From: Bugula neritina | Lineage: Eukaryota > Bryozoa > Gymnolaemata > Cheilostomatida > Bugulidae | Assembly (NCBI GenBank): GCA_964035545.1 | Contig: OZ037770.1 | Coordinates: 2,664,001-2,728,000 of the forward strand | DNA length: 64,000 bases | Reading direction: 5' to 3' | Part shown: in pieces, positions 28,401 through 31,400 of the stretch | Position numbering within the stretch: position 1 is the stretch's first letter | How the letters are laid out: each line of letters opens with the position of its first letter | Made by a program: the position numbers and the translations under genes | Notes under the pieces: generated by a model | What the model was told of the DNA's origin: nothing | The model's input: only the letters and a program-made list of their open reading frames with translations | Databases searched by the model: none

Positions 28401-31400
28401 AATATCACAGGCCTGTCGTGATACGAGGCTACAGTAGAAAGGAGCTTCTCATCAAATACTCCGGCCACGCCAGCTGCGCCTACAATAACATATTAACATA
28501 CTAGTACATAGTAACACAAGAGTACACAGTGCATAATAAACAACCAATAGTATGGCATATAACAAGTAATGGACCAATAGGAGTGACAGTACATAAAAAA
28601 ACTGACCAATGAGAGCATCCGGTTTGACTAGTTCCACAGCTTCTTGCAAAGTCTTGACGGGTTGGAGTCCAGACTTGGCGAACTTGATGTTACTTTCGCT
28701 AAGTCCTCCCTCGGGTCTGTCCTGCAGTGAATGTAACAGTTCAGCAGTGCAGAGTAATCAATTAGCTGGTGTCAAGGTACACCATGAAATATACACAAAG
28801 TGTTCATACCAGATGAATTGGGTGTAATTTGAGCAACACTATCGAAATCATCTAACAGCGTTTCAAACCAAGACATATAATCAGTAGAGAGAATAAAGTA
28901 ACATGAAAACTGCTATAACTATAAATATCACAGAGTAACTCAGCGTAAACATCAATCAGTACTGCTCAGTACTACTCACTGTCAGCACTACTCACTGTCA
29001 GTACTACTCACTCTCAGTACAACTCACTCTCAATACAACTCAGTATCAGTACTACTCAATGTCAGTGCTACTCAGTGTCAGTACTACTCACTCCCAGTCA
29101 CTACTCAATGTCAGTACTACTCAGTATCAGTCACTACTCAGTATCAGTACTACTCACTCTGTCACTACTCACTGTCAGTACTACTCAGTGTCAGTACTAC
29201 TCAGTGTCAGTCACTACTCAGTATCAGTACTACTCACTCCCAGTCACTACTCAGTGTCACTACTACTCACTGTCAGTCACTACTCACTCCCAGTCACTAC
29301 TCTCAGTCACTACTACTCAGTGTCACAGAGTAACTCACCTGAACTAACAGTCCGTGAACATCAAACAAGTATATTCTATCTAAAGCCTGTTGTTCAGTCA
29401 GCCCTTCATCAATCAGAGCTCTGAGAAGTAGATTAGCTATTCCAGTTGATGCCTGTTTAAAGTATATAAATACATTGATCAGCCAACTCCTGCTTGACTG
29501 TGCAGCAGTATATTATAGACACGGGTAATCCTTCTGCGTGTGACAATGTAGCTTTCTAACAGCAGAGTGCAAAGTTTTATGATAAACACAATTTCTTATT
29601 TCTAGTGAGCGGGATGTAAAGAGAAGATAACTCTGGTAAGTGTAGACTGAGGTGCTTTACATGGCCCCAGCTCTATGATAAAATCATAACAAATATGGCC
29701 ATAGAATGGATCGTAAAAAAAAGAAATTAGAAACACAAGCTAAGCTAAATTATCTACCTATACCGTAATGAACATGAGATGCTTTGGGAATAGATAGAAA
29801 AGCCATACAGAGGAAATATAATACTAAACAACAGGTTTAGGTGTATCAAAGCCACTCTATGCTAACAATAGAAACTGAAATGATACAACTAGTGTATTAA
29901 TTACCAGTGTAATGTTCATGACGATTGTTTAGCCTTATTTCTACTGCAATGGAATCTGAAGCTATTGCACTCTCGCTTTGTAACATTAAACCAGGTATGA
30001 CAATTCTAACAGCTCTTCAGATCTACCCGATACTACTTCCAGAACAAAGAAGGGAGGCGCAAGGTACGCCCCTCAACTTAGAACAGCTGTGTAATAGAAC
30101 TCAGACTACATACTGTCAGAGTAAACTTTCAGCTTCTCAGCGTAATCAGAAGTGAGTTGGAAAGCAGACGGAGAGGAACTGACAAGAGAATGTTGAAGTA
30201 TCTGAAGATAGCCTTAGTTCTGTGTATTCTAACAGCTGGGAGACTGAGAGGGGGTGAGATGGACACCTCTAACCTGCTAAATGAGTTGCTCTCAGGCTAC
30301 AGTGAAGAGGGGATGGGGAGGAAGGGAGAAGAGAAAGCTGGAGAAAAGACTTTGAATGAGAAGCAGATGTTAGAAAGTATTGGAATACCAACCAGTGACA
30401 TGGGTGAGTCATCTGACCTCTGAACTATGATGTCATAAGTTGATACAAACCTCCAACCATAACATCTGCATTTCAATACTAGGATATGTCACTTTTCTTA
30501 ACTAACTTTTATTGGATAAAACATAGAAGTTGTCTCTCTTGCATACATCAGTTTACTACATTATGGAGTTATTTCTCCAATAGACTCTAATGTTGACTCA
30601 AAAAGCAGGTTATAATTAAAAAATGACGAACACGTCTAATACAGCGACAGATATCATTCACCTGTATATCTGTATATTAGCATATATAGTATATTATAAT
30701 ACCTGTATATTAGTATGTATAGTATACTATAATACCTGTATATTAGTATGTATAGTATACTATAATACCTGTATATTAGTATGTATAGTATACTATAATA
30801 CCCACACACTAACAACACACTTTTCTATCTCCAGACCTCAAAGAGTTACGACAGAAACTGATAGTTTACTTGGCCCGAGTGGAGGCTGAAATAGAGGCTG
30901 GGGACTTAAAGGTAGGCTGAATGAGAGAGACTTTCTGAGTGACCTTCACTCGTGACCTTGACACCTAAACTTGACATATAAACTTGACGCATGGACTTGA
31001 CCTGTGAACTTAACTCACTTAAATGAGTAATACTTAAATTGCCGATACGTTTAATTCCAGTTTTTGTGACAAACAGTAAAGCGACGGCAATTGTTAACAT
31101 GCGACATGAAGTAGTTAAAGAAGCTTATTCAAAACTTGGTAACACGTAGGAGACTTGAAATGTTAAGTAGTCAAGTCAAGTCATGACTTGAACGAGCTGA
31201 ATAGACTTGAATGTTTACAGAAGTTGGACGAACAGCTAAGGAAGTCAAATGCAGAAGATTTGGACGAAAATAAACTCTGGCAGTTCATTAAAGGCAGATC
31301 GGGAGCTAGAAACATCAACTAGTGCTGCGTCACATGGCCACGTCACAAGACCGAAGGACATACTCTCAAACAGATGTAAAGTAAAGCTCCTATTACGTCT

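Follow-up and report, generated by a model that had tools for sequence, protein, structure and literature searches.

Peptide hormones of the CRF/DH44 type are characterized by a mature peptide of about 40 residues, which is excised by dibasic cleavage and amidated at its C terminus. For the bryozoan Bugula neritina, PMC4990251 describes precursors such as BnNPFL, BnVP-like, BnFDSIG-like, BnILP-A to F and BnGPB and presents alignments with known homologues for those of NPF, vasopressin, insulin and glycoprotein-hormone type. Within the 31 Bugula peptides listed in Table 2 of the same source, 24 end in KR or RR and two in KK. A second point of reference is provided by nested genes, which, according to PMC3786989, are widespread in Metazoa, frequently run in the opposite direction to their host and account for about 6% of the genes in the fly, 2.1% in C. 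elegans and 0.5% in human. The gene considered here is not described in the titles and abstract beginnings of the papers listed on nested genes, Bugula neuropeptides and bryozoan CRF-type peptides.

The candidate gene is located on the plus strand of a 64-kb stretch of the Bugula neritina genome, which we refer to as the window. Its coding sequence of 393 nucleotides, encoding 130 amino acids, is distributed over three exons (30190–30403, 30835–30911 and 31221–31322) that are separated by two GT-AG introns at 30404–30834 and 30912–31220, with respective phases of 1 and 0, which confirms the original prediction of three exons joining in phase. Exon 1 starts with the ATG at 30190, encodes the putative signal peptide followed by a linker of acidic and basic residues and ends in phase 1 at the donor GTGAGT after position 30403. 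Exon 2, whose acceptor directly precedes 30835, contributes 26 residues, with the first base of its first codon supplied by exon 1, and ends in phase 0 at the donor GTAGGC after 30911. The terminal exon 3, whose acceptor is found directly 5' of 31221, contains 33 codons and the stop codon TAG at 31320–31322 and is the least certain of the three. When scored with untrained splice-site weights against every GT and AG of the strand, both donors and the first acceptor are strong, falling into the best 1.1% of GT and the best 0.55% of AG, respectively. The second acceptor is weak (best 16% of AG), although still within the range of the five scored acceptors of the neighbouring malic enzyme gene (–0.33 to 4.07). 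Both donors are weaker than six of the seven scored malic enzyme donors. Exon 1 also harbours an alternative donor at 30253–30254, which cuts after 30253 in the same phase 1 and scores 5.53 compared to 5.51 for the main donor. If used, it could join the signal peptide directly to exon 2 and thereby give rise to a short form. Downstream of the coding sequence, a sequence scan identified two variant hexamers resembling poly(A) signals, AGTAAA at 31380 and CATAAA at 31426 (31380–31431), and no canonical AATAAA up to position 31600. A second open frame on the plus strand (29949–30155, starting with MESEAIALS) lies directly upstream of the candidate in a different frame, is without Pfam match and is possibly an upstream ORF or unrelated.

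The candidate is surrounded by a malic enzyme gene on the minus strand, which extends from about 38,044 down to 25,502 and of which 12 exon pieces were placed. Its exons were first recognized by eye among the open reading frames and then subjected to a Pfam scan, in which five of seven pieces contained malic enzyme domains, with none at E up to 0.01 in the two remaining pieces, which are 53 and 27 amino acids long. On the minus strand, the exon at 31448–31546, which ends with FQGAGS, covers positions 3–35 of the Malic_M profile, and the exon at 29339–29452 continues with positions 36–72 (matched by 29342–29452). Since both segments of the profile abut without a gap, the two exons are neighbours and the host intron spans 29453–31447, with the candidate wholly inside. 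The whole coding sequence thus lies inside a single host intron, as defines a nested gene, which bears out the proposed antisense arrangement; the designation of the host as intron 7 holds provided that the MSSK piece at 37874–38044 is exon 1. Within this intron, the candidate would constitute its own transcription unit.

The base composition follows the proposed exon borders. The GC content of the candidate exons (0.453, 0.468 and 0.412) exceeds that of the introns (0.299 and 0.379) and is raised at each exon, as observed in the malic enzyme gene, whose 12 exon pieces range from 0.396 to 0.522 and the gaps between them from 0.276 to 0.411 (with one gap still including its exon 3). Already upstream of the ATG, at 29990–30189, the GC content is raised to 0.45, which would fit a 5' untranslated stretch. 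In a test of codon-position composition that included all 25 loci, each in its open orientation, the proposed frame outscores both other forward frames in all three exons, and its score is matched by 4 to 7 of 5,000 base shuffles. With the malic-enzyme model of the same test, a reverse frame is ahead in exon 1 (2.3 vs 2.2) and exon 3 (1.5 vs 1.0). When compared to 767 open noncoding stretches, exon 1 appears ordinary to mildly high, with 8–18% of the stretches scoring as high, and exon 3 ordinary (18–48%). Synonymous codon usage, for which 11 of the 25 loci, read in the wrong orientation, were left out, does not discriminate, as the value of the candidate is reached by 1 of 79 noncoding chunks but surpassed by a shifted and two reverse frames.

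The probability of encountering such an arrangement by coincidence was addressed with a chain search that combines an ATG preceded by a purine at –3, a signal peptide, two introns, a length of at least 130 amino acids and a summed splice score at least equal to that of the candidate. At these thresholds, the candidate is the only chain found on both strands of the 64-kb window, and neither the reversed nor the complemented window contains any. Simulated strands yielded a chain in 0 of 800 cases with an order-1 and in 3 of 1,600 cases with an order-3 model, and an earlier, smaller simulation of 60 strands produced none. Because the thresholds were drawn from the candidate itself, these figures are post hoc, and with relaxed values (2.4, 14, 110) at least one chain appears in 1.5% of 800 order-1 and in 43 of 1,600 order-3 strands. 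In the real window, the relaxed search retrieves two loci, the ATG of the candidate combined with another third exon (at 31703) and a chain on the opposite strand, whose start is base 47261 in reverse-complement numbering. The individual exons differ in their weight: exon 2 is the strongest part, with none of 4,000 random stretches of 1,000 nucleotides holding one as good, and exon 3 the weakest, with an equivalent found in 529 of 4,000 random stretches of 536 nucleotides. A chance origin of the chain thus appears unlikely. We accordingly rate as improbable the view that the intron harbours no gene and that open frames and splice-like sites coincide in it by accident, even if it would be in line with the unsupportive codon usage, with a frame signal little above that of open noncoding stretches and with the sensitivity of the simulations to relaxed thresholds, since it conflicts with the scarcity of simulated chains at the thresholds of the candidate, with the unmatched exon 2 and with the GC contrast between exons and introns.

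A different question concerns the identity of the third exon. In a rather unlikely scenario, exons 1 and 2 would belong to a real gene for a secreted protein and exon 3 would be wrong, with the transcript either reading through into intron 2 or being spliced to an acceptor that lies past the exon of the malic enzyme. The weakness of the second acceptor, the frequency of comparable exons in random stretches and the slight frame signal of exon 3 point in this direction, as do better-scoring acceptors further downstream (31703 and 32191) that are preferred by the relaxed chain search and the observation that reading beyond the second donor encounters a stop after two codons (EAGDLKVG, stop). Conversely, between 30971 and 31447 the acceptor at 31221 is the sole one with a score of at least –0.5 and hence the sole usable acceptor for exon 3 within the host intron. 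It opens 33 codons, compared to 0 to 30 codons following the nine acceptors listed between 31498 and 32389, and the GC content of the resulting exon is above that of both intron 2 and the 3' flank (0.368).

The full product was used as query in a search of 5.8 billion proteins, in which one of 38 candidates scored, a protein of JGI source termed P0001. It corresponds to exon 1 from the ATG onwards, with 71 of 77 residues being identical in a gapless alignment and residues 1–23 unchanged, a comparison at the protein level that carries no measure of selection. Since P0001 continues into the intron up to the same stop, it is simply a close relative of the DNA; it is a machine-called frame and no evidence of expression, a point in favour of the no-gene view. 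Its six differences are all non-conservative and each explicable by a single transition, a pattern as it might arise under weak constraint, with no sign of strong constraint acting on exon 1. The window further contains two intronless frames of class A GPCRs (51977–52933 on the plus and 57463–58467 on the minus strand), of which the first has a single relative at an E limit of 1e-5, which is also from JGI and identical in 219 of 235 positions. Eight of the 16 differences between these receptors score as positives, compared to none of six being conservative in P0001, and 10 of the 16 are concentrated in the initial 26 residues of the region that both have in common, with the remainder being near-constant. 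Because a GPCR relative too is found in JGI and at least three cryptic species have been described within Bugula neritina (PMC11480708), an origin of both JGI relatives from another lineage of this species would fit the data, short of proof. The frame of exon 3 has no relative in the protein search, and none of 16 pattern-matching stretches for exon 1 in viral contigs was confirmed.

Within the Bugula neritina genome, protein and DNA searches detected the candidate exons at their own locus only, among the matches listed, and no paralogues of exons 2 and 3 were found at E up to 10. Intron 1 contains an AT-rich tandem repeat with a unit of 33 bp and 4.2 copies (30666–30802, plus strand). A search of the remaining genome with the host intron gave at least 180 DNA matches, and those listed are all located in this repeat or its edges. 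A transposon origin of the candidate was rejected, with its exons at a single locus and the DNA matches elsewhere confined to the repeat stretch, among the matches listed. The repeat itself (30662–30802 with its edge) has relatives on several chromosomes, some of them as runs of neighbouring matches, and represents a dispersed minisatellite family. Retrotransposon frames are found on the minus strand at 400–2700 of the window. They include an RVT_1 domain (2050–2409, E 3.8e-10) as well as an integrase match below threshold (772–1083) and, judged by eye, would be of the Gypsy type.

The predicted product starts with a segment resembling a signal peptide (residues 1–17, encoded at 30190–30240). 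Its mean hydropathy of 3.0 over 10 residues is matched by 3 of the 139 ATG frames of at least 40 codons in the window, with low-complexity frames left out. The assignment is founded on crude hydropathy and the –3/–1 rule, which both support the signal peptide as predicted, with cleavage after residue 17 being assumed. The product had also been described as free of cysteines, which is the case for the part following the signal peptide, with a single Cys at residue 12 located inside. The signal peptide would direct the 130-residue product into the secretory pathway and be cleaved off near residue 17, and the soluble remainder of about 113 residues would then be exported intact. This predicted mature chain has a mass of about 12.8 kDa and a pI near 5 and is cysteine-free and rich in Lys and Glu. 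Searches with the product and its pieces identified no family in Pfam at the cut-off (best E 0.021), and those with the product no relative in NCBIfam or, by sequence, in the PDB. In light of the lack of a family match in the libraries searched and of a detected second copy, its most apt description is that of a taxon-restricted secreted protein; small secreted proteins without family are usual in poorly sampled phyla. A further frame on the minus strand at 16543–16800, which is rich in glycine and contains a signal-peptide-like start (MNGLKLALLTALIAAASAFQFSKN...), perhaps encodes another small secreted protein.

The original prediction had speculated about a new secreted regulator or neuropeptide precursor, whose helix LKELRQKL loosely resembles CRF/DH44-type hormones and whose GR near the end could provide an amidated peptide. 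In the corresponding hormone reading, the helix would be a class B receptor ligand of the CRF/DH44 type. The signal-peptide-like start would suit such a precursor, the LxxLRQxL core loosely resembles DH44, and class B receptor domains are present in the genome, where PF00002 is matched 17 times at an E limit of 1e-10. Still, we find this proposal very unlikely, since the signal peptide is not accompanied by KR or RR sites surrounding short peptides. Neither pair is found in the product, whose dibasic pairs are restricted to RK 44, KK 97 and RK 104, compared to the prevalence of KR and RR in the tabled Bugula peptides. KK 97 might in principle be cleaved, as two of these peptides end in KK. The sole late GR precedes SGARNIN, and dibasic cleavage does not delimit a peptide of about 40 residues, which leaves the amidated peptide unsupported. 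The resemblance to CRF/DH44 equally found no support: neither the whole product nor its helix and linker pieces produced a reported match to PF00473 with an E limit of 10, and the four weak matches of this profile in the Bugula neritina genome at the same limit do not include the candidate locus, bearing in mind that HMMER filters discard weak profile matches. The probable amphipathic helix carries no weight because shuffled sequences frequently reach the same moment maxima (1,864 of 2,000 for the mature chain and 1,678 of 5,000 for residues 72–106), and the supposed peptide is interrupted by introns. Among the 31 tabled peptides, one shares a single four-residue word (RSGA) with the candidate, the best alignment to the tabled NPF peptide has an E of 0.25, and the main text of PMC4990251 is without the LKELRQ, MLKYLK and KLWQF of the candidate protein; BnNPFL itself maps to C4:19885395, where its residues 2–33 are 94% identical. 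With CRF profile, Pfam, NCBIfam, PDB sequence and BnNPFL comparisons all being negative, the hormone identity was rejected. A related view, in which the gene encodes a bryozoan secreted regulator unseen before, with one or two isoforms that include or skip the linker depending on the use of the donors at 30403 and 30253 and a helical class B ligand devoid of canonical convertase sites, appears very improbable. We infer that a structural or lumenal role of the secreted chain is more likely than that of a processed peptide hormone.

The searches also revealed features of the assembly that are independent of the locus. In the best 30 kinase matches (with 128 of 1,226 candidates scored), 29 are on small unplaced contigs and contain in-frame TAA and/or TAG but no TGA, whereas those on C1–C9 are mostly stop-free (in the same 128 of 1,226). 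The unplaced contigs with in-frame TAA or TAG probably originate from a ciliate, in which TAR would encode Gln, left in the assembly. On chromosome 6 (C6:11172572–11176912), a segment of about 4.1 kb is 98.6% identical to the mitochondrial contig, which might stem either from a recent insertion into the nuclear genome or from misassembly. The mitochondrial contig (C295) carries COX1.

Taken together, we assign a probability of roughly two in three to the interpretation that the candidate is a real and independent spliced gene, antisense within a malic enzyme intron, whose product, equipped with a signal peptide, is secreted as an intact chain of about 113 residues, a taxon-restricted protein. 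Provided that it is expressed, the gene would contribute such a protein and a pair of nested genes to a phylum in which few genes have been studied. It also offers a tangible case for testing whether genes of small secreted proteins are concealed antisense inside host introns. The product would be new in lacking a recognized family, and the antisense nesting itself is common in animals (PMC3786989). With the CRF/DH44 hormones described by PF00473, the candidate has in common a short stretch rich in Leu and Arg, LKELRQKL, but it differs by the lack of a profile match and of KR/RR cleavage sites and by the introns splitting this stretch. The known Bugula peptide precursors originate from the same animal and are likewise secreted proteins with a signal peptide, with the BnNPFL precursor comprising 116 residues (PMC4990251), whereas most of the tabled peptides end in KR or RR and the candidate is without KR, RR or a detected homologue family. 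With respect to gene architecture, a described counterpart is 2mit in intron 11 of tim2 of Drosophila (PMC3786989). In contrast to the candidate, which is known here from its sequence, 2mit encodes a protein of 1,141 residues, is expressed and is found nested in flies and the honey bee, but in both cases a whole gene with an intron of its own resides within a host intron on the opposite strand.
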